The notes under the pieces were generated by a model. The model was not told where the DNA came from, did no database searches, and saw only the letters and a list, made by a program, of their open reading frames with translations. Below are positions 1,852 through 61,479 of a stretch of DNA of 64,000 bases, piece by piece. The first letter of the stretch is position 1. Each line of letters begins with the position of its first letter. Source of the stretch: Paludibacter sp. GTDB taxonomy: Bacteria > Bacteroidota > Bacteroidia > Bacteroidales > Paludibacteraceae. The stretch spans positions 1-64,000 of the forward strand of contig JAQUWU010000012.1 in the NCBI GenBank assembly GCA_028692715.1. Reading direction: 5' to 3'. The position numbers and the translations under genes are program-made.

Positions 1852-4800
1852 TTAGCGGATGATTAATTTTTCGTTTTTCAGCAAACTTGCAGTTTCTGCT
1901 TTGCCCACATAAGCACCCGGCATCAAACCCTGAGTGGATACAGTGCTCAGTTTATTGCCCTCAAATTGTACTCGTTTTATGGCTACTCCTTTTATATCGT
2001 AGAGGGTAAATTCGCCTCTTTGATTGCTGAAGTTCTGGATATAAAGTACTCCATCCGAGTTATAGATTTTCAATTGTTCCTTGTCTGCAATGCCCTGGTT
2101 TTCGGTTATTGTAGTCACAATTTTAAAGCGCTTGGTTGCCTCAGGACTTGTTTCGGCAGTAAAACTGTATTCCGAACCATCGGCAGTTATATCGGTAGTT
2201 GTACCGGTTAACAGATCCACTAAATACAGTTTTCCATAAGCTAAAGCTGTGTTTTGATGCGTAAACTTCAAGCTATATTCTTTGTCCTGACCGGCCTGGA
2301 ATCCAAGATAGATTTCATTCAGATCATTTACCGCATCAATTTGATAGTTACCATCTGCTTCCATGGCAAAAAGTTGCGGATTAAGCACCGATCCCATCAT
2401 TTTATATCCGTCCCATCCGTTGTCGAAATTGCGGGTACAGCTTGGTTCGGTAAATATCCACATCCGATCGGCCGATAGTTTTCCGCTTACATCGATGCGG
2501 GTAAACACTTTTTCTGCTGATGCCGCTTTGCGTGGAGCACGTTGCATATCAGTGTTAGGAAGTGGTCCCCAAGTTACGTATGATGGAATATCGATTGATC
2601 CGGTAGCTTCGTTTATTGATCTCACCAAAAATCCCTGCATAGATGGTATTTGATTAGGGATTAAGTCAGTTCCTGCTGTTTCCTTAGAAGATACTGTATA
2701 TTGTCCGGGGGCATTCCCATCGTAACCGGTGTTCGACAAACTATTGGTATAGGTTCCGGTATTGTACAAGTAAACCGAGTTGTCGGTATTTCCTCCGAAT
2801 GTAATGCTTTTGATATCAATAGCACTGGTGTATGGATTTCCTAATACATATTGTCCCGGATATTTTGCACTCATCGTATAGGGTAAACTTACTGAGAAAT
2901 CGGCATTGGTCAGTTCTCCTTTAAAGGTGTATTTTGTTGGAGCATCCTGAGTCAGTTCATAACCTGTACCCGAAGTTAGAATAGAGTCGGGACCTTGTGT
3001 TTTCCATAGTCCGGCATCATCGGGCGAAGACTCGTACTGTTTCCGTACAATGCAATTACTGAAAACATCACTATAAGCCATCGTTTTTACCGGAATACCG
3101 AAATATTGCCAGTTGTATTTGCTGCCGGCAGGTTGGGATAAATCCCAACTGGCTTTGGAGTACATCTCTACTGTTGCCAAAGGATCTTGGTTACTTTTTT
3201 TAGCGTTTCCCACACTGGCTTTGATATGTGGTTGAGTAATTTCTGCATTGTTAAAGTAAAAAAAGCTTGCATTTGGAAGTGCAGGATCGGCTTTGATTAT
3301 AAACCCTTCGGCTCCTGAATGATTTGTGATAGTACCTGTAACGGCAAATATTTGTGCAGCATTCAGTGTTAATTTAGCACCACTATTGATAATTAAATCT
3401 TCACACAATAATAAACCCATATCCATTTCTCCCGTATTTGTAATCGTACAAATACCATCTATTACAGGTGAACCTTCTCCAGCGGGCACTTCCTGAACAT
3501 TCCATCTTTCAGCATCTTCCCAGTTCCCCGTTCCGCTAAATACAGGAACATTGGAGAAACTTGATTCATCTGATAGGATAGTGATTCCGGCCGGAGTCGT
3601 TACATATCCTTTGTAATAAATGGTAGAACTGTTGTCTAAATTGGTCACATCTACCGTAAATGTACCTCCGGTAGTGCCAACAGCTACTTCATTATTGTCT
3701 GTTGTAGTAACACCCAATGAAGTGCTCCAATAGATACCTCTTTCGGTAACCGGTGCATCCGCAGGTACAATGCTTGCACCAAGCGTAGCAGTAGTTAATT
3801 TAATATTGGTGGCAGTTGGTGAGGTAATGCTGTAAGTGATATCGGGCAAAGTTGTAAAACTAACTTCTGATCCATAACTTGTGCCTGCCGTGTTGGTTGC
3901 ATAAGCCTTGATATAATAAGTTGTATTAGCCGTCAGACCAGTTATTGGACTTGTAAATGCTCCCGTTGCAGCAATTGCTCCCATTGCTGTTTTGGTAGTT
4001 AATGCTACAGTAGGATTAGTCAATGTGCTCCATACTACTCCATATTGTGTTGGATTGGGTACACCAAGATCAGTGATATTTCCATTTCCCGTGGCAGAAG
4101 TTTTTGCAATAGACGAAACTGCTTGTGTGGTAACGGTTGGAGCTAGAGGCAAAGTTGTAAAACTAACTTCTGATCCATAACTTGTGCCTGCCGTATTGGT
4201 TGCATAAGCCTTGATATAATAAGTTGTATTAGCCGCCAGGCCAGTTATTGAACTGTTAAATGCCCCGGTTGCAGCAATTGTACCCAATGTTGTTTTGGTG
4301 GTTAATGCCACAGTAGGATTAGTCAATGTGCTCCAGACTACTCCATATTGTGTTGGATTGGGTACGCCAAGATCAGTGATATTTCCATTTCCCGTGGCAG
4401 AAGTTTTTGCAATAGACGAAACTGCTTGTGTGGTAACTGTTGGTGCTATTGGCAAAGTTGTAAAACTAACTTCTGATCCATAACTTGTGCCTGCCGTGTT
4501 GGTTGCATAAGCCTTGATATAATAAGTTGTATTAGCCGCCAGGCCAGTTATTGAACTGTTAAATGCCCCGGTTGCAGCAATTGTACCCAATGTTGTTTTG
4601 GTGGTTAATGCCACAGTAGGATTAGTCAATGTGCTCCAGACTACTCCATATTGTGTTGGATTGGGTACGCCAAGATCAGTGATATTTCCATTTCCCGTGG
4701 CAGAACTTGTAGCAATGGTCGAAACTGCTTGTGTAGTAACGGTTGGAGCTAGAGGCAAAGTTGTAAAACTAACTTCTGATCCATAACTTGTGCCTGCCGT

Positions 4801-6915
4801 GTTGGTTGCATAAGCCTTGATATAATAAGTTGTATTAGCCGTCAGACCAGTTATTGGACTTGTAAATGCTCCCGTTGCAGCAATTGCTCCCATTGCTGTT
4901 TTGGTAGTTAATGCTACAGTAGGATTAGTTGATGTGCTCCATACTACTCCATATTGTGTTGGATTGGGCACACCAAGATTGGTGATATTTCCATTTCCCG
5001 TGGCAGAAGTTTTTGCAATAGACGAAACTGCTTGTGTGGTAACTGTTGGTGCTATTGGCAAAGTTGTAAAACTAACTTCTGATCCATAACTTGTGCCTGC
5101 TGTATTGGTTGCATAAGCCTTGATATAATAAGTTGTATTAGCCGCCAGTCCAGTTATTGAACTGTTAAATGCCCCGGTTGCAGCAATTGTACCCAATGTT
5201 GTTTTGGTGGTTAATGCCACAGTCGGATTAGTCAATGTGCTCCAGACTACTCCATATTGTGTTGGATTGGGGGCACCAAGATCAGTGATATTTCCATTTC
5301 CCGTGGCAGAAGTTTTTGCAATAGACGAAACTGCTTGTGTGGTAACCGTTGGTGTCACAATATATGTAAATTGATCAACACTACTTGTGATACTCGTTCC
5401 ACCGGCAGTTGTTACAGTTACATCCACTGTACCAGAACCGGCAGGAGAAGTAGCTGTTATTTGCGTAGATGAATTAACCGTATAATTTGTAGCAGCAGTA
5501 CTTCCAAACAGAACTGCTGTTGCACCGGTAAAATTTGTTCCGGTAATAGTAACGGTGGTTCCTCCGGCAGTTGAGCCATTTGTAGGGTAAATACCTGTTA
5601 CTGATGAAGCAGCAACTACAGGTATAAACACCCAAGAAGCACCCAGTTCACTGTTATCACCAGACCCTCCCACCAGGGCGGTATTGCCATCGGCCGAAAG
5701 AGAAACTGAACTAGCTTGTTTTGGATATGTACCTATACCTCCGGTGCCCACTAATTTTCCCCCTTGCTGAGACCATACGCCTGTTGTTCGGATATAGACC
5801 CAAGCGGCACCCTGATTACTATTATCAGTATATCCCCCCACCATGGCGGTATTGCCATCGGCTGAAAGAGAAACGGATATGCCTTGTTGGGCACCACCCA
5901 CAGCTCCGGTGCCCACTAATTTTCCCCCTTGCTGAGACCATACGCCTGTTGTTCGGGTATATACCCAAGCGGCACCCTGATCAATATTATCACCATATCC
6001 CCCCACCATGGCGGTATTGCCATCGGCTGAAAGAGAAACTGACCGGCCTTGGTATTGTGATGTACCTATACCTCCAGTGCCTACTAATTTACTCCCTTGC
6101 TGAGACCATACGCCTGTTGTTCGGGTATATACCCAAGCGGCACCCTGATCATTATTATCCCATTGTCCACCCACCAAGGCGGTATTGCCATCGGCAGAAA
6201 GAGAAACTGAACTGCCTTGATTGGCACCACCCACAGCTCCGGTGCCCACTAACTTACTCCCTTGCTGGGTCCACGTACTTCCCGAACGGATATATACCCA
6301 GACGGCACCCTTATTATAGTTATCAGAATATCCTCCCACTATGGCAGTATTGCCATCCGCGGAAAGTGAAACTGAACAACCTTGATTTGAAGCACTTGTA
6401 GCTCCCGTACCTACTAATTTATCCCCCTGTTGCGTCCATACGCCTGCCACACGGGTATAGACCCAAGCTGCACCCTTACCATAGTTATCGTAGCTTCCTC
6501 CCACTATGGCGGTATTACCATCGGCGGAAACAGAAATGGAAGAGCCTTGATATGCATCTCCTGTATTATCAGTGCCCACTAATTTAGAGCCTTGCTGCAT
6601 GCCCGGAAAGGAAGTGGCAGTAACCGTAAAATCACCGGTACTGGTGGCTGTGCCTTCGGCTGTAGTAATAACTGCTGTTCCTGTAATTGCTCCGGGCATC
6701 ACCATACCTACCAATGTTGTACCATCATTGGATACGGCAATGGCCGTTACTCCACCTATAGTAAATGCAGTTGGCGTATTTAGATTGGTACCGCTAATGC
6801 TAACCAATGTTCCCACTGGCCCAGTTGTAGGAGTAAAAGAAGTAATAGTTGGAACTGCTGCCTGTCCAATAAAATACAGACTTAAGCAAAGGCTGAGTAG
6901 AATTAGTTTTTTCAT
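1852..6915 (-). CDS. Giant T9SS-exported repeat protein (IPT/TIG, FG-GAP-like, five FN3-like repeats)
   Basis: 1687 residues. A signal peptide (about 1-19) is followed by an IPT/TIG domain (about 21-95). Next are six 55-residue FG-GAP-like propeller repeats (pattern SVSLSADGNTALVGG ... GAAWVYTR) to about residue 430, then a second IPT/TIG domain. Five almost identical 101-residue FN3-like repeats follow (about 521-1026), then a diverged sixth module. The C-terminus is a T9SS type A sorting domain (last about 70 residues, ending LKNEKLIIR). Known families indicate secretion across the outer membrane by T9SS and attachment to or release from the surface; ligand unknown. The repeats suggest an extended stalk with a propeller head. 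It probably heads an operon with the downstream LRR protein. Confidence 0.85.
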   Translation of the reverse strand: MKKLILLSLCLSLYFIGQAAVPTITSFTPTTGPVGTLVSISGTNLNTPTAFTIGGVTAIAVSNDGTTLVGMVMPGAITGTAVITTAEGTATSTGDFTVTATSFPGMQQGSKLVGTDNTGDAYQGSSISVSADGNTAIVGGSYDNYGKGAAWVYTRVAGVWTQQGDKLVGTGATSASNQGCSVSLSADGNTAIVGGYSDNYNKGAVWVYIRSGSTWTQQGSKLVGTGAVGGANQGSSVSLSADGNTALVGGQWDNNDQGAAWVYTRTTGVWSQQGSKLVGTGGIGTSQYQGRSVSLSADGNTAMVGGYGDNIDQGAAWVYTRTTGVWSQQGGKLVGTGAVGGAQQGISVSLSADGNTAMVGGYTDNSNQGAAWVYIRTTGVWSQQGGKLVGTGGIGTYPKQASSVSLSADGNTALVGGSGDNSELGASWVFIPVVAASSVTGIYPTNGSTAGGTTVTITGTNFTGATAVLFGSTAATNYTVNSSTQITATSPAGSGTVDVTVTTAGGTSITSSVDQFTYIVTPTVTTQAVSSIAKTSATGNGNITDLGAPNPTQYGVVWSTLTNPTVALTTKTTLGTIAATGAFNSSITGLAANTTYYIKAYATNTAGTSYGSEVSFTTLPIAPTVTTQAVSSIAKTSATGNGNITNLGVPNPTQYGVVWSTSTNPTVALTTKTAMGAIAATGAFTSPITGLTANTTYYIKAYATNTAGTSYGSEVSFTTLPLAPTVTTQAVSTIATSSATGNGNITDLGVPNPTQYGVVWSTLTNPTVALTTKTTLGTIAATGAFNSSITGLAANTTYYIKAYATNTAGTSYGSEVSFTTLPIAPTVTTQAVSSIAKTSATGNGNITDLGVPNPTQYGVVWSTLTNPTVALTTKTTLGTIAATGAFNSSITGLAANTTYYIKAYATNTAGTSYGSEVSFTTLPLAPTVTTQAVSSIAKTSATGNGNITDLGVPNPTQYGVVWSTLTNPTVALTTKTAMGAIAATGAFTSPITGLTANTTYYIKAYATNTAGTSYGSEVSFTTLPDITYSITSPTATNIKLTTATLGASIVPADAPVTERGIYWSTSLGVTTTDNNEVAVGTTGGTFTVDVTNLDNSSTIYYKGYVTTPAGITILSDESSFSNVPVFSGTGNWEDAERWNVQEVPAGEGSPVIDGICTITNTGEMDMGLLLCEDLIINSGAKLTLNAAQIFAVTGTITNHSGAEGFIIKADPALPNASFFYFNNAEITQPHIKASVGNAKKSNQDPLATVEMYSKASWDLSQPAGSKYNWQYFGIPVKTMAYSDVFSNCIVRKQYESSPDDAGLWKTQGPDSILTSGTGYELTQDAPTKYTFKGELTNADFSVSLPYTMSAKYPGQYVLGNPYTSAIDIKSITFGGNTDNSVYLYNTGTYTNSLSNTGYDGNAPGQYTVSSKETAGTDLIPNQIPSMQGFLVRSINEATGSIDIPSYVTWGPLPNTDMQRAPRKAASAEKVFTRIDVSGKLSADRMWIFTEPSCTRNFDNGWDGYKMMGSVLNPQLFAMEADGNYQIDAVNDLNEIYLGFQAGQDKEYSLKFTHQNTALAYGKLYLVDLLTGTTTDITADGSEYSFTAETSPEATKRFKIVTTITENQGIADKEQLKIYNSDGVLYIQNFSNQRGEFTLYDIKGVAIKRVQFEGNKLSTVSTQGLMPGAYVGKAETASLLKNEKLIIR
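3842..5356 (-). repeat. Five tandem 303-bp coding repeats
   Basis: Equivalent bases recur exactly 303 bp apart (for example 3992, 4295, 4598, 4901), giving five in-frame copies of a 101-residue FN3-like module inside the 1687-residue protein. Long runs are identical at the nucleotide level between adjacent copies, so recent duplication or gene conversion is likely. Copy number may vary between strains, and assembly collapse is possible. Confidence 0.9.
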
Positions 6916-56976: not shown

Positions 56977-57402
56977 TCATTCATGATTTAATTGTTGAGT
57001 AAACTGTTCGAGTGTTGGTAGGGAGTTTTTAATTTCATTCGGTAATTCATTGTATGTAAATTGACTAACTCCCATAAGTTTATTTATATTTTTCAACGTA
57101 AAATCGACAACAATATTGTTTTTGTTTTTGCAGAGTAAAATGCCAATCGTAGACTTATCATCATCGGCTTTTACTAACTGGTTGATGGCTATCATGTGAA
57201 AATTAAGTTTTCCTAAAAACTCAGGTTCAAACTCTTTGACTTTTAGTTCGATAATTACGTGACATTTCAACTTCGTGTGAGAAAAAAGCATGTCGGTTCT
57301 GTATTCTTTTCCACCCACAACAAGTTGGAATTGCCGTCCCATAATTTGGTTTTGTGATTTCTCCATCAGCTTGTTGGATTTTATTATTTTCAAATTATCC
57401 AT
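56977..57402 (-). CDS. DUF1016 (YhcG-type) nuclease domain, N-terminus missing
   Basis: 141 residues from ATG 57402. It matches only the C-terminal PDDEXK-like half of DUF1016 proteins (GRQFQLVVGGKEYRTDMLF, HVIIELKVKEFEPEFLGKLNF, STIGILLCKNKNN, ending LPTLEQF). The D-ExK catalytic residues (RTDML and IELK) are present. The usual about 200-residue N-terminal domain is absent and nothing like it lies upstream, so this is probably a shortened gene or relic. Two 17-bp direct repeats lie at its start. Confidence 0.65.
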   Translation of the reverse strand: MDNLKIIKSNKLMEKSQNQIMGRQFQLVVGGKEYRTDMLFSHTKLKCHVIIELKVKEFEPEFLGKLNFHMIAINQLVKADDDKSTIGILLCKNKNNIVVDFTLKNINKLMGVSQFTYNELPNEIKNSLPTLEQFTQQLNHE

Positions 57403-57414
57403 CAACTTGTTGGA
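57362..57414. repeat. Pair of 17-bp direct repeats at the DUF1016 start
   Basis: TCCATCAGCTTGTTGGA (57362-57378) and TCCATCAACTTGTTGGA (57398-57414), 36 bp apart, one mismatch. The second provides the ATG of the shortened nuclease gene. Confidence 0.7.
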
Positions 57415-57579: not shown

Positions 57580-58902
57580 TTAGTATCGTAACCACTTCCA
57601 CATTTCTTTCCAACTGGCTTTTTTACCGTACATCAGAATTCCAGTTCGGTATATTTTTCCAGCCATCCAGGTTGTTCCGATAAACGATAAAACCAGAATA
57701 GACAAAGATAATATTATTTGCCAAACCGGAACGTCGAATGGCAAGCGAACCATCATTACTATGGGCGAAGTGAATGGAATCATCGAGCACCAAAAGGCTA
57801 ATGGTCCATCCGGATTTTGAGCGCTGTAAATGGCTGCATAAATACCAAAGATAATGGGCAAGGTTAATGGCAACGAAAATTGTTGTGTATCGGTTTCACT
57901 ATCGACAGCAGAACCTACAGCCGCAAAGAGAGAAGCATATAGCAAATAACCACCCAAAAAATAAACCACAAAAAGCACAATAATCTGCATAAAATCAAAT
58001 CCGTGTAACATGGCGAAAACCTGCTGAATTTCATTTGGATTTTGTGACATAGGTGAAGCCGACATCCCCATTTGGTTCGCTTGTTGCAAAGCCTCCATGT
58101 CCAAATTACCACCAAAGAAACTTCCTGCAGCCGTAGAAATTGCAATGGTCAAAATAAGCCACATTAAAAATTGAGTCAATCCTACCATTGCAATCCCAAT
58201 GATTTTTCCCATCATTAATTCAAAAGGTTTTACCGACGAAATCATAACTTCCACGATGCGACTTGTTTTTTCCTGAACAACACCTCCCATTACTTGTGCG
58301 CCATAAATAACAATAAACATATAAATAACAAAGGCCGAAATCATGCCGATGACTAAGGCCAATTCGGCTGAACCTTCTTTATTATCACCGTCTTCGCCCC
58401 ATTTAATAGTAGGAATGTCGATGTTTGCTTTCGATTTTTCCACCATTTCTTTTAGGTTTGGGATATTATACGATGCGAGTTTTTGTAATTCTACATATTG
58501 ATTCAGCAAACCTGAAATATAATTTTTCAGTTCTAGATTGACCTGTTTTTCTGAATAAAGCGTAGCTGCTTTAGGGTTATTGGCCAAATTGTCGGTAATT
58601 AAAAGCAAAGCGGTAAATTCTTTATCATCTTTCCCTTCATTCTCTTTTTTTACATCTTCTGCAGGTTTATCCACAAAATCAAATTCATAGGTTTCGTTAC
58701 TTTTCAATACTTGCGAGTAAATATTAGTGCGGTCGATAACCACAATATGTTTCTTATTGCTGTCCTTGATATTCGATAACCAAAGCGGAACAGTTATCAT
58801 ACCTGCAAACAGAAGTGGCGTAAGAAAGGTAAGAATGATGAAAGATTTTTTCATCACGCGGGTAGTGTATTCCCGTTTTATAATTAATGAAATTTTGCTC
58901 AT
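57580..58902 (-). CDS. ABC-2 type transporter permease (NatB-like)
   Basis: 440 residues. An N-terminal transmembrane helix (KKSFIILTFLTPLLFAGMI) is followed by a long periplasmic segment (about 45-190), and then by about five membrane helices, including VVQEKTSRIVEVMISSVKP typical of NatB-like ABC-2 permeases. It probably exports a substrate together with the ATPase at 59378-60274. A four-helix-bundle cassette now sits between the two genes. The substrate is unknown; NatAB homologues export Na+ or lipophilic compounds. Confidence 0.85.
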   Translation of the reverse strand: MSKISLIIKREYTTRVMKKSFIILTFLTPLLFAGMITVPLWLSNIKDSNKKHIVVIDRTNIYSQVLKSNETYEFDFVDKPAEDVKKENEGKDDKEFTALLLITDNLANNPKAATLYSEKQVNLELKNYISGLLNQYVELQKLASYNIPNLKEMVEKSKANIDIPTIKWGEDGDNKEGSAELALVIGMISAFVIYMFIVIYGAQVMGGVVQEKTSRIVEVMISSVKPFELMMGKIIGIAMVGLTQFLMWLILTIAISTAAGSFFGGNLDMEALQQANQMGMSASPMSQNPNEIQQVFAMLHGFDFMQIIVLFVVYFLGGYLLYASLFAAVGSAVDSETDTQQFSLPLTLPIIFGIYAAIYSAQNPDGPLAFWCSMIPFTSPIVMMVRLPFDVPVWQIILSLSILVLSFIGTTWMAGKIYRTGILMYGKKASWKEMWKWLRY

Positions 58903-58908
58903 AAAAAA

Positions 58909-58941
58909 TAATGGTAAATTGTTAATGGTAAATTATTAATG
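58909..58941. repeat. Inverted-repeat arm of four-helix cassette A (left)
   Basis: AT-only periodic sequence containing TTAATGGTAAATTRTTAATG-like units. The segment 58917-58940 is complementary to 59349-59372 over 24 nt with 3 mismatches. It lies 7 nt upstream of the ABC permease start codon. Confidence 0.75.
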
Positions 58942-59372
58942 CCAATAATGTTAGATTCTTTTTGAATGGAACATCATCTCATTAATTTATTTTGTTATGA
59001 TTCGATTTTGCTGTTTTAATAATACTTGTAATTAGTTTTATGATTTCCAACGCATCGTTATTTATGTTATCAAATTGCTCTTGACTTAAATAATCAGTTT
59101 TTGTTAATAATTCTAACCAATAGAGTGTCTCATTCATTTCTTTTTGAGCAATAGCCATTTTATGAATAAAATCAACAGTTGACTCAGCATGTTCTGCCTC
59201 TCGAACCATTGCTCCAACACTTGTTCCACTTCGTAAAACTTGTTTAGATAAAATAAATTCTTTTTTGGTTTCTGTTAAATGTTTAAATAATTTTACAATG
59301 CGTATTGCAAACAAAAGACTTTTGTCCTTAATTACATTCTCTTTCATAATTAACCATTTATCATTAACAATT
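58917..59372. mobile_element. Inverted-repeat-bracketed four-helix-bundle cassette A
   Basis: A 456-bp unit made of two inverted arms (58917-58940 and 59349-59372) enclosing the complete four-helix gene 58982-59347. It separates the ABC ATPase from its permease. The layout resembles 23S rRNA intervening sequences, which have an ORF of this family between inverted ends. Mobility itself is inference. Confidence 0.5.
58982..59347 (-). CDS. Four-helix-bundle protein (S23/IVP family), copy A
   Basis: 121 residues. It matches PF05635-type four-helix-bundle proteins first seen as ORFs in 23S rRNA intervening sequences (also the fold of Avd in diversity-generating retroelements): LRSGTSVGAMVREAEHAES, then DFIHKMAIAQKEMNETLYWLELL. 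The four helices span the whole protein. It is bracketed by inverted repeats and lies within the ABC exporter operon. The molecular function is unknown; the usual pentameric fold may bind nucleic acid. Confidence 0.85.
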   Translation of the reverse strand: MKENVIKDKSLLFAIRIVKLFKHLTETKKEFILSKQVLRSGTSVGAMVREAEHAESTVDFIHKMAIAQKEMNETLYWLELLTKTDYLSQEQFDNINNDALEIIKLITSIIKTAKSNHNKIN

Positions 59373-59377
59373 CACAA
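59348..59377. repeat. Inverted-repeat arm of cassette A (right)
   Basis: The complete 30-nt gap between the ABC ATPase stop (59378) and the ATG of the four-helix gene (59347). It is complementary to the left arm (see 58909-58941), so a transcript could fold with the four-helix gene in the loop. Confidence 0.75.
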
Positions 59378-60274
59378 TTATTTCTTCACCGTTTCAATGA
59401 AGATATCATTCATGCTTGGCAATAATTCTTCGAAACTAATAATCTCAGTTTGTTTTATGATTTCATTCAACAAAATGTTGTTGCCCCCCGAACTAATTTT
59501 TTTAATGGTACTTTCTACGATTCCATTCATTTGTTTTTCGGTCAATAATTCAAAATCAGAATTTCCCTCTATTGGTGTTGCAGTTGATATTTTATAGGTT
59601 TTGCTGGCAAAGGATTTTTTTATTTCAGTTACGTTTCCTTGTAAAACAATTTTAGCGTGATTAACCAGCGATATATTTTCGCAAAGTTCCTCTACCGATT
59701 CCATATTGTGGGTCGAAAAAATAATTGTTGCTCCCTTATCCCGTAAATCCAAAATTTCTCTTTTCAGTAAATCGGTATTTACAGGGTCGAAACCACTAAA
59801 AGGTTCGTCGAATATCAGTAGTTTAGGTTCGTGCAAAACAGTTGTGATAAATTGCACCTTCTGTGCCATTCCTTTCGAAAGTTCTTCCACTTTTTTGTCC
59901 CACCATGCCTGAATTTCGAATTTCTCAAACCAGAATTTTAATGCTTTCAACGCATCATTTTTTTTCATTCCTTTCAGTTGAGCAAGATACAAAGCCAGTT
60001 CGCCCACTTTCATTTTTTTGTACAAACCACGTTCTTCGGGCAAATAACCAATATGTTCCACATCGGCAGAAGTCATTCGTTTCCCATTCAAACGAACTTC
60101 ACCACTATCAGGAGCAGTTATGCAATTGATAATTCGTATCAAGGTGGTTTTTCCTGCACCATTTGGCCCGAGTAATCCATACACCGAATTCTCCGGGACT
60201 TCCAGACTGACGCCATCCAGCGCCCTGTGTCCCGAATATTGTTTTACTACGTTTTCTACTTCAAGTAATGTCAT
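59378..60274 (-). CDS. ABC transporter ATP-binding protein
   Basis: 298 residues. It has Walker A GPNGAGKTTLI, the signature region ELSKGMAQKVQFI (SKG replaces the canonical SGG), Walker B LLIFDEPFSG and the H-loop STHNMESVEEL. The family is NatA-like. It powers the ABC-2 permease 476 nt downstream. The order is ATPase, four-helix cassette A, permease. Confidence 0.95.
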   Translation of the reverse strand: MTLLEVENVVKQYSGHRALDGVSLEVPENSVYGLLGPNGAGKTTLIRIINCITAPDSGEVRLNGKRMTSADVEHIGYLPEERGLYKKMKVGELALYLAQLKGMKKNDALKALKFWFEKFEIQAWWDKKVEELSKGMAQKVQFITTVLHEPKLLIFDEPFSGFDPVNTDLLKREILDLRDKGATIIFSTHNMESVEELCENISLVNHAKIVLQGNVTEIKKSFASKTYKISTATPIEGNSDFELLTEKQMNGIVESTIKKISSGGNNILLNEIIKQTEIISFEELLPSMNDIFIETVKK

Positions 60275-60280
60275 TTTATT

Positions 60281-60331
60281 GATGTGATGATGTGATAATG
60301 AGTTGATGTGATGATGTGATGATGTGATGAT
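60281..60331. repeat. Inverted-repeat arm of four-helix cassette B (left)
   Basis: Simple-sequence GATGTGATGAT repeats interrupted by TAATGAGTT. The core ATGAGTTGATGTG (60298-60310) is the exact complement of 60739-60751, in a longer imperfect match (about 26 of 32). It lies just upstream of the ABC ATPase start. Confidence 0.75.
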
Positions 60332-60343
60332 TAAATGTATTGA

Positions 60344-60688
60344 TTATTTTGATTTCATTTTTGAGATGATACTTGACAAGAGTTTTTTTATACTTAAAAT
60401 CTTAATTTTCAGCTCCGAATTAAACGGATAATTTGGTGATTTTTCACACAACAATAACCAATACTCTGTTTCATCTGCTTCTTTTGCTGCAATTTTTAGT
60501 TTATGAGTGAAATCAGCATTGCTTTCACAATTTTGAGCTTCCCGTACATTTGCACCTATTGATGTTCCTGATTTTAGTAATTGATTTGCAAGAACAAACT
60601 TCCTTTTTTCTTCTAATAATTCTGTATATGTAATTATTTCAAGAGCAAATTCGAAGCTCAATTCTAAAATTTCGTTTCTCTTTTCCAT
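60344..60688 (-). CDS. Four-helix-bundle protein (S23/IVP family), copy B
   Basis: 114 residues, a diverged paralogue of copy A: LKSGTSIGANVREAQNCES, then DFTHKLKIAAKEADETEYW. Conserved positions coincide with copy A (GTSxGAxVREA, DFxHKxxIAxKExxET-YW). It sits alone between radC and the ABC ATPase and is bracketed by inverted arms (60281-60331 and 60731-60787). The function is unknown. Confidence 0.85.
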   Translation of the reverse strand: MEKRNEILELSFEFALEIITYTELLEEKRKFVLANQLLKSGTSIGANVREAQNCESNADFTHKLKIAAKEADETEYWLLLCEKSPNYPFNSELKIKILSIKKLLSSIISKMKSK

Positions 60689-60730
60689 AATATTTAGGTT
60701 TAATCATTCATCAATTTATTACAACATTAC

Positions 60731-60787
60731 CTCATCAGCACATCAACTCATCAGCACATTAGCACATCGCCTCATCATCACATCATC
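60731..60787. repeat. Inverted-repeat arm of cassette B (right)
   Basis: CATCA-type repeats (CACATCAACTCAT at 60739-60751 and CATCAGCACAT nearby). It reaches into the last radC codons. Confidence 0.75.
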
Positions 60788-61479
60788 CCTTCATCTGCAA
60801 AGCTATAATAATTTCCTCTGGCAATGATGATATGATCCAGAAAACTTATACCAATGGCATCGCAGCCTGCTTTTATTCTTTTCGTAATTACTTCATCTTC
60901 GTGGCTCGGACGATTTTGACCGGAAGGATGATTGTGTGCTACGACTATTGCCTGAGCCGATTTTTCTAACGCCATTTTCAACATCATTGGAATATCTACC
61001 ACGGTTTGTCGGGTTCCACCTTGCGTCAAGCGTTTAATTTCTATTACTTTGTTTGCCCCGTTTAACAGTCCAACCCAAAACTCTTCGTGCTGTAAATCGA
61101 TAAGTTGCGGTTCGAAAAGTTCAAATAAATCGATGCTGGAAGCAATTTTTTTCCGTTCCAGTATTTCATTTGTTTTGCGGCGTTTCCCTAATTCCAATGC
61201 CGCCATTATGGTAATAGCTTTTGCTTTGCCAATTCCTTTAAATCGTTTGCAAAGATCATTTACCGAAAGTTGAGCCAGCTCATTGATATTGTCCTTGCAT
61301 TCACGCATAATTCTTCGGGCAAGTTCCACTGCCGATTCATCTTTGTTGCCAATGGCAATGAGAATAGCTAACAATTCTGCATCCGAAAGACTTTGAGCGC
61401 CTTTCTTCAACATTTTTTCGCGGGGCTGATCATCTTCGGCCCACTCACGAATGGTTAGTCTTTTTTCATCGGATAGCAT
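60778..61479 (-). CDS. radC: RadC-family JAB domain protein
   Basis: 233 residues. It has an N-terminal UPF0758-type start (REWAEDDQPREKMLKKG), a helix-hairpin-helix (FKGIGKAKAITIMAALELG), and a JAB1/MPN metalloprotease-like domain with HNHPSGQNRPSHED (H182, H184, Asp195). Its once-proposed role in DNA repair is unproven. The promoter box lies only 4 nt from the ATG. Confidence 0.9.
   Translation of the reverse strand: MLSDEKRLTIREWAEDDQPREKMLKKGAQSLSDAELLAILIAIGNKDESAVELARRIMRECKDNINELAQLSVNDLCKRFKGIGKAKAITIMAALELGKRRKTNEILERKKIASSIDLFELFEPQLIDLQHEEFWVGLLNGANKVIEIKRLTQGGTRQTVVDIPMMLKMALEKSAQAIVVAHNHPSGQNRPSHEDEVITKRIKAGCDAIGISFLDHIIIARGNYYSFADEGMM

Follow-up and report, generated by a model that had tools for sequence, protein, structure and literature searches.

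S23 genes between inverted heptad arrays in a Paludibacter exporter operon: candidate copies of a widespread mobile element

An ABC exporter operon in the window analysed here (the 64,000-nt stretch formed by positions 1 to 64,000 of contig JAQUWU010000012.1, Paludibacter sp. assembly GCA_028692715.1) contains two small genes of the S23/IVP family, A and B, each enclosed by a pair of inverted arms, and the question raised by this locus is what two such cassettes represent among the genes of an operon. From sequence comparison across 48 genomes of the genus and beyond, A and B probably represent a widespread S23/IVP mobile element with heptad-array ends, present here twice; it is best read as kin to the intervening sequences (IVSs) of 23S rRNA but resident in protein operons, and may be the principal form of a broader class. 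Such an element would consist of an S23 gene flanked by inverted arrays of a short unit, 7 nt or in some cases 8 nt long. The cassette layout is real and general in the genus.

The two cassettes of the exporter locus

On the minus strand, the gene order is radC, B, ABC ATPase, A, and permease (Table 1). Both proteins scored well above the PF05635 cut-off of 33.8 bits (A, 92.6 bits; B, 77.3 bits), and when inverted pairs with cassette-like spacing were scored across the window (2528 positions), the arms of B (54) and A (46) ranked first and second, with the best pair elsewhere at 33; these matches and scores confirmed the preliminary description of two S23/IVP genes, each with its own inverted repeat. 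The arms of A are 38 nt long and 84% complementary, and those of B pair over 57 nt (60281-60337 with 60712-60768, 77% complementary) or, alternatively, over 52 nt (60280-60331 with 60742-60793, 81% complementary). The A arms, earlier called AT-only, are AT-rich 7-nt units that contain GG/CC, and the B arms are built of GATGTGAT-type units 8 nt long. The arms of the two cassettes had been taken as unrelated in sequence but alike in layout; the sequences do differ, but a common rule had been overlooked, in that both cassettes have tandem units (period 7 in A, 8 in B) set up against the stop codon before them and the start codon after them, with every arm touching, overlapping, or ending ≤5 nt from a host stop or start codon. 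One cassette, A, does split the ATPase from its permease, as had been noted, and B sits between radC and the ATPase. Between the arms of A or B there was no transposase, only the S23 open reading frame besides short antisense frames; no reverse transcriptase was found beside either cassette, the neighbours being RadC and ABC genes, and neither lies in an rRNA gene.

Table 1. Cassettes A and B and their host genes (window coordinates)
Feature	Position	Strand	Basis and remarks
ABC-2 permease (host gene)	57580..58902	-	PF12698, E 3.9e-57; divided from its ATPase by cassette A
Cassette A right arm	58903..58940	-	Inverted repeat; abuts permease start codon; period-7 self-match 0.61
S23/IVP protein A, 121 aa	58982..59347	-	PF05635, E 2.2e-26; four-helix model, predicted local distance difference test (pLDDT) 94.5
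Cassette A left arm	59349..59386	-	Inverted repeat I4; 7-nt units; overlaps ATPase stop codon; period-7 self-match 0.65
ABC ATPase (host gene)	59378..60274	-	PF00005
Cassette B right (3') arm	60280..60337	-	5 nt ahead of ATPase start codon; period-8 self-match 0.82
S23/IVP protein B, 114 aa	60344..60688	-	PF05635, E 1.2e-21
Cassette B left (5' in transcript) arm	60712..60795	-	Inverted repeats I1/I2/I8; 8-nt units, G-rich on sense strand; crosses radC stop codon; period-8 self-match 0.68
radC (host gene 5' of cassette B)	60778..61479	-	PF04002 RadC, E 2.5e-38

Arms, repeat units and S23 subfamilies

PF05635 matches were present in 45 of the 48 genus genomes. The host genome alone has 13, including two fragments of a single broken gene (L008, L013), and by eye most of its S23 loci have short tandem repeats on one flank that face inverted repeats on the opposite flank, the units differing between loci. 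A genus set of 103 distinct S23 genes was built from the loci of the profile and ATPase searches and 60 regions chosen among the matches listed; 97 of these had full 200-nt flanks and were scored (six were dropped), representing 46 distinct sites and thus including many orthologous copies. Arm scores had a median of 39, compared with 18 for both dinucleotide shuffles and cross-paired flanks and 19 when flanks were compared in direct orientation; the 99th percentile of the shuffles was exceeded by 79 of the 97 genes (versus 5% of cross pairs and 12% in direct orientation), and 61 outscored all 20 of their own cross pairs. The excess of inverted repeats over shuffled controls on which the preliminary description had staked its proposal is therefore present in other family members. 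The same arm score was exceeded by only 12/579 other genes in a sample of one genus genome (G002), and by 2/56 short co-directional genes.

The arms follow the tandem rule seen in A and B. Among 70 left arms with a score of at least 29 and a length of at least 24 nt, the best period (4 to 12 tried) was 7 in 47 and 8 in 14, and mean self-match at lags of 7, 14, and 21 was 0.59, 0.59, and 0.62, versus 0.34, 0.32, and 0.31 in shuffled letters. In the 77 elements with an arm score of at least 29, the median distance was 1 nt from the upstream stop codon to the left arm and 10 nt from the right arm to the next ATG, both distances were ≤15 nt in 46, and the inter-gene stretch holding the element had a median length of 517 nt. 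Left arms contained 8.7% C and right arms 8.1% G. S23 genes were co-oriented with both neighbours in 93/103 cases, against a base rate of 354/580 genes in G002; six of the others had no called upstream neighbour and two no called downstream neighbour within 600 nt (at L077, the next called downstream frame lies 673 nt away on the opposite strand), and two opposite-strand upstream calls were short frames overlapping the S23 gene. Because the S23 element in the genus lies in sense orientation between a stop codon and the next start codon, the host operon can transcribe it. Between same-site pairs, the median ratio of nonsynonymous to synonymous substitution rates (dN/dS) was 0.13 (91/137 pairs with finite dS), which indicates purifying selection on the S23 protein.

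When the loci were grouped by S23 type and by the genes on either side, orthologous sites emerged and, in addition, single S23 types at unrelated sites. Where two S23 proteins at different sites shared at least 60% identity (n = 127 pairs), the left arms were alike in 54% and the right arms in 59%; at 50-60% identity these values fell to 5% and 4%, and below 50% arms were alike in ≤2%. Over all different-site pairs the correlation between arm and protein was small (rho 0.11) and was matched by 0/1000 permutations. The Pfam families of the flanking genes confirmed that the sites are different: the subfamily with AAGAACC/AAGAACA units occurs between methylmalonyl-CoA mutase genes, between two dehydrogenases, and within HlyD/AcrB and GT2/CrcB pairs, and the TTGATTGG/TTAATTAG type within aminotransferase/FtsX-type, DUF2721/NAD synthase, deaminase/Mfd-like, and GT2/GT1 pairs. 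Further hosts were gene pairs for a flavoprotein and an iron-sulfur protein (sdhA/sdhB-like) and for ETF-alpha and acyl-CoA dehydrogenase, as well as another ABC pair. The idea that every unit contains an AG dinucleotide, which would have suggested a TRAP-like reading, was tested and rejected (18/33 units, shuffled mean 18.1).

Sites without the cassette and solo arrays

Relatives of the ATPase (E ≤ 1e-60) were found in 39/48 genus genomes, and 30 of 41 ATPase matches were inspected for occupancy of the two sites. Site A held an S23 gene in 5/30 loci, one of them (L053) with two in-frame stops, and site B in 5/30, one degenerate; the other 25 ATPase/permease loci had no S23 gene at site A, and in eight of them the stop and start codons overlap by 4 nt. 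At the sdhA/sdhB-like pair (30 of 45 matches inspected), S23 was present in 7/30, with an eighth gene cut by a contig end, the two host genes were joined by 1-26 nt in 14/30, and one locus (L176) retained a deletion remnant with both arms. Orthologous loci without the cassette, which had been named beforehand as decisive, thus exist at both gene pairs. The idea that all S23-free sites are pre-insertion sites was dropped, as one right-arm unit survives in each of several short sdhA/sdhB-like gaps (L171, L172, L174, L185) and the remnant in another locus; because these traces persist, losses of the cassette do occur, and its occurrence at unrelated sites points to gains. Parsimony on the ATPase tree, in which 8/27 inner branches were well supported, required at least three changes at site A and at least four at site B. 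Eighteen S23 genes among the genus matches listed had in-frame stops.

These patterns bear on the possibility that the cassettes are ordinary operon genes, S23 being a small regulatory RNA-binding protein and the arms its autoregulatory sites, with no mobility. Purifying selection, the retention of site and subfamily across species, and the sense orientation within operons would all be expected of such genes; however, one subfamily with one unit is found in unrelated operons, cassette-free sites and scars exist, and some matches carry in-frame stops, so we regard this explanation as improbable. The recurrence of gene and arms in non-homologous operons, together with empty sites and scars, instead supports the earlier suggestion of a class of minimal elements built around a four-helix protein.

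Other inserts were seen at the same sites. A short insert of 115-152 nt with CCCC../GGGG.. inverted ends occupies the sdhA/sdhB-like gap in 7/30 loci (L166, L175, L183, L186, L187, L191, L192), and an insert of this type also occurs at site A in L063 and L064. Upstream of the ATPase start (site B), L044 has a hairpin insert with TGGCAGAAT/ATTCTGCCA ends where other loci have S23 or nothing, and L052 and L063 have GCTTCGCGTTATT-type repeats in the gap, the L063 copies facing inverted ones.

Arm-like arrays also occur alone. In 0.8 Mb of G002 sampled at even steps, a scan for intergenic tandem arrays recovered 16 arrays of period 7 and three of period 8, versus 0-1 for each remaining period between 5 and 12; not one of these 19 arrays lies near the sample's two S23 genes (L074, L077), whose arms are weak (score 26 each). 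Sixteen of these arrays lie between co-directional genes: the six G-rich ones were ≤20 nt after a stop codon in three cases and never before a start, and the ten C-rich ones were ≤20 nt before a start codon in six cases and never after a stop. Among 56 arrays of two units (60 loci), the outer end lay ≤25 nt from a start (11) or stop (22), in the strand sense just described, in 33, seven were in called coding frames, and six were near S23; few arrays had a same-unit partner in inverted orientation within 700 nt (2/27 and 3/29), and 51/56 had none. Solo S23-arm units before starts or after stops were likewise noted in G000, G002, and other genus genomes, for example at the permease start in L055 and L059, and some genus genomes hold tens of hits of such unit patterns.

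A pattern from the CAATCAACC unit was found in 15/48 genomes with up to 178 overlapping hits, and its backward control in none; it was present in 10/14 genomes with its S23 type (identity ≥60%, fragments counted) versus 5/34 others (Fisher p 0.0003, a test that ignores kinship), and all four genomes with >30 hits carry that type. Arrays of the B unit were found in 5/5 genomes holding a full-length S23 of at least 75% identity. The arrays might nevertheless be independent simple-sequence repeats, produced by slippage or acting as translation signals, with S23 among them by chance, as their abundance and their distance from S23 genes in G002 would allow, along with the abundance of the B unit in G001 (67 hits) and G009 (38), where the matches listed include no B-type S23 of ≥60% identity. 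Against this stand the match between unit and S23 subfamily, the far better match of the two arms of one cassette to each other than to arms of other cassettes, the four CAATCAACC-rich genomes, and Geobacter sp. AOG1, in which all 16 hits of a three-copy CGGAACT pattern form one array directly before an S23 gene; chance association is accordingly very improbable.

Recognition, breadth and relatives of the proposed element

An RNA-level intervening sequence is another alternative, in which the arms would serve for base pairing within the transcript, RNase III would cleave the resulting stem, and the S23 segment would be lost or translated separately, with the protein uninvolved. The predicted folds of the A and B transcripts do beat shuffles (z -3.0 and -4.0, respectively), with the arms closing the stem; S23 genes in the genus lie in sense orientation; a Coxiella IVS RNA with heptads is cut in its terminal stem by RNase III (PMC4990558); and own arms pair better than same-site arms from other species (38 vs 14 of 53). 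However, arm mismatches compatible with G-U pairing were no more frequent than A-C ones (83 vs 94, p 0.45; 43 vs 45 with one per site), and a lenient alignment that included columns outside the arms gave 964 G-U versus 1097 A-C, in the opposite direction (p 0.004). Selection on base pairs as the force that keeps the stem was thus left unsupported, and the earlier term "RNA-folding element" is the less well supported part of the proposal, the folds being better than those of shuffles but the mismatches giving no sign of such selection. Purifying selection on the protein, the tracking of S23 subfamily by the repeat unit, and the lack of a nearby inverted same-unit partner in most arrays examined also argue against this alternative, which seems unlikely. 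Because there is no G-U excess, own arms match each other, and unit matches protein, recognition of the repeats by S23 is favoured, and appears likelier than a pairing-selected stem.

The protein itself resembles known structures. The four-helix model of A matched the S23 structure 2rld_B (E 5.6e-10, 63% identity) and also 2gsc, both with five chains per crystal entry. It also matched Avd of diversity-generating retroelements (DGRs) or their ribonucleoprotein (4dwl_D, 8ub7_E) with a Foldseek probability of 1.00 and template modelling scores of 0.72 and 0.75, a match that is weak by E (0.07-0.08) and has 12% identity. Although Avd and the modelled protein share a four-helix fold, A and B have no reverse transcriptase beside them, and the only RVT_1 matches of the genome are in one frame on another contig, C27.

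At phylum level, the S23 family was found in 232/296 sampled genomes, and 26 of the 30 best phylum loci were co-oriented on both sides. A wider set, assembled by looking for conserved S23 motifs in named genomes, comprised 80 loci with 87 genes, of which five with short flanks were dropped; with affiliation taken from the record title, the arms beat all 40 shuffles in 38/53 Bacteroidota genes and 21/29 others. By eye, an S23 cassette lies between frames resembling groES and groEL in a Gastranaerophilales metagenome-assembled genome (L377, genome of L218), and Vreelandella sedimenti (genome of L227) has three S23 genes on one contig within 13 kb (L374, L376, L379), two of which (L376, L379) lie between genes resembling rmlB and rmlD. 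A 200-nt stretch of G005 in the host genus (L015) is identical in MWCX01000086.1 (L220, Bacteroidetes bacterium ADurb.Bin174), a hint at the host's relatives. Elsewhere in the window, a 142-aa frame at 56977-57405 has the YhcG_C nuclease (PF06250) as its sole profile match and may be a fragment, and long tandem arrays occur at 3845-5354 and 5630-6551, with periods of 303 (five copies, 92% matches) and 165/333.

Miniature inverted-repeat transposable elements (MITEs) and the repetitive extragenic palindromes and their tyrosine transposases (REP/RAYT) are known for short inverted repeats and for copies without a gene. S23 cassettes share short inverted repeats and gene-free copies with these, but have no transposase open reading frame, have subfamily-specific ends, and have tandem heptads as arms. 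Compared with DNA transposons, the S23 gene and its ends likewise occur together at unrelated sites, and sites without them exist, but no transposase lies between the ends. A close likeness is to the rRNA IVSs with S23p of Coxiella and Leptospira, where an open reading frame of the same family lies within complementary ends; the cassettes described here differ in lying between protein genes of operons, at many sites and with subfamily-specific units. The Coxiella 23S rRNA IVS is described in PMC4990558 as 428 nt with complementary ends and a sense-oriented S23p open reading frame, preceded by tandem GACAGAT heptamers; RNase III cleaves its 28-bp terminal stem. Family, layout, and heptads support the link to rRNA intervening sequences drawn earlier.

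Heptamer arrays have been described in other bacteria, and the portions of these reports drawn on here allow a comparison by description alone. GGGAATC arrays in Xanthomonas and GGGGA(C/T)T arrays in Nostoc mostly follow stop codons at 0-50 bp when on the coding strand, or precede start codons at the same distance when on the opposite strand; two Xanthomonas genomes contain 70 and 75 inverted heptamer pairs, Nostoc only a few (PMC4692102). TAACTGA heptamers were reported from Beggiatoaceae, Cyanobacteria, and Bacteroidetes, with arrays mostly directly before start codons in one Beggiatoaceae genome (PMC4679880); sampled Microcystis arrays depart from the start-codon rule (PMC4679880; PMC4692102). 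The tandem heptamers and their similar stop and start placement make a tie to the S23 cassettes a lead, by analogy. The terms "S23" and "four helix" have no occurrences in the main texts of PMC4692102 and PMC4679880, and the top results from open-licence PMC literature included no paper that connects S23 with heptads or with insertions into protein operons; in PMC5524665, for instance, such genes carry no annotation beyond "four helix bundle protein".

Several observations weigh against the mobile-element reading. No movement was seen, and no near-identical copies at two sites were found in the sample, the highest nucleotide identity being 86% among the 45 different-site pairs listed; no target-site duplication was apparent by eye at two sites, where the repeats blur the boundaries; and S23 has no known catalytic domain. 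Orthologous copies inflate the genus sample, although 37/46 sites reach a score of 29 when one gene per site is counted. Unit arrays occur in genomes without the cognate S23 (5/34 for CAATCAACC, 12/43 for the B unit), and the B unit exceeds 30 hits in five genomes, only two of which (G000, G035) hold an S23 of at least 75% identity, with G001 and G009 as noted above. Finally, an arm score >28 was reached in only 11/30 best phylum loci, and co-orientation on both sides in only 16/29 genes outside Bacteroidota, versus 48/53 within.

For the mobile element that A and B probably represent, movement, binding, and RNA cutting are steps that we infer. S23 would bind its own repeat as a multimer, as the five chains per entry of its solved relatives suggest; binding could keep the two arms alike and drive the spread or maintenance of full elements as well as solo arms, the host providing whatever enzyme is needed. 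An insert flush with stop and start codons that can close into a stem would cost the operon little, the stem perhaps being cut by RNase III as in 23S rRNA. A wider form of this reading, which we put forward with appreciably less confidence, is a distinct class of mobile elements, spread over several phyla, whose small S23 pentamer recognises a heptad code of its own; in this class full copies have the gene between two heptad arrays, the more numerous solo arms after stops or before starts are non-autonomous derivatives or scars, and the rRNA IVSs and the Xanthomonas, Nostoc, and Beggiatoaceae arrays are branches or relics. The match between protein and repeat makes the reading directly testable. 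If mobile elements with such a protein-repeat code exist, the S23 family, whose function was unassigned, would gain a role, the rRNA intervening sequences would gain an origin, and the unexplained heptamer repeats of bacteria would have one cause, in elements that sit between the genes of core enzyme complexes and leave the operon unbroken.

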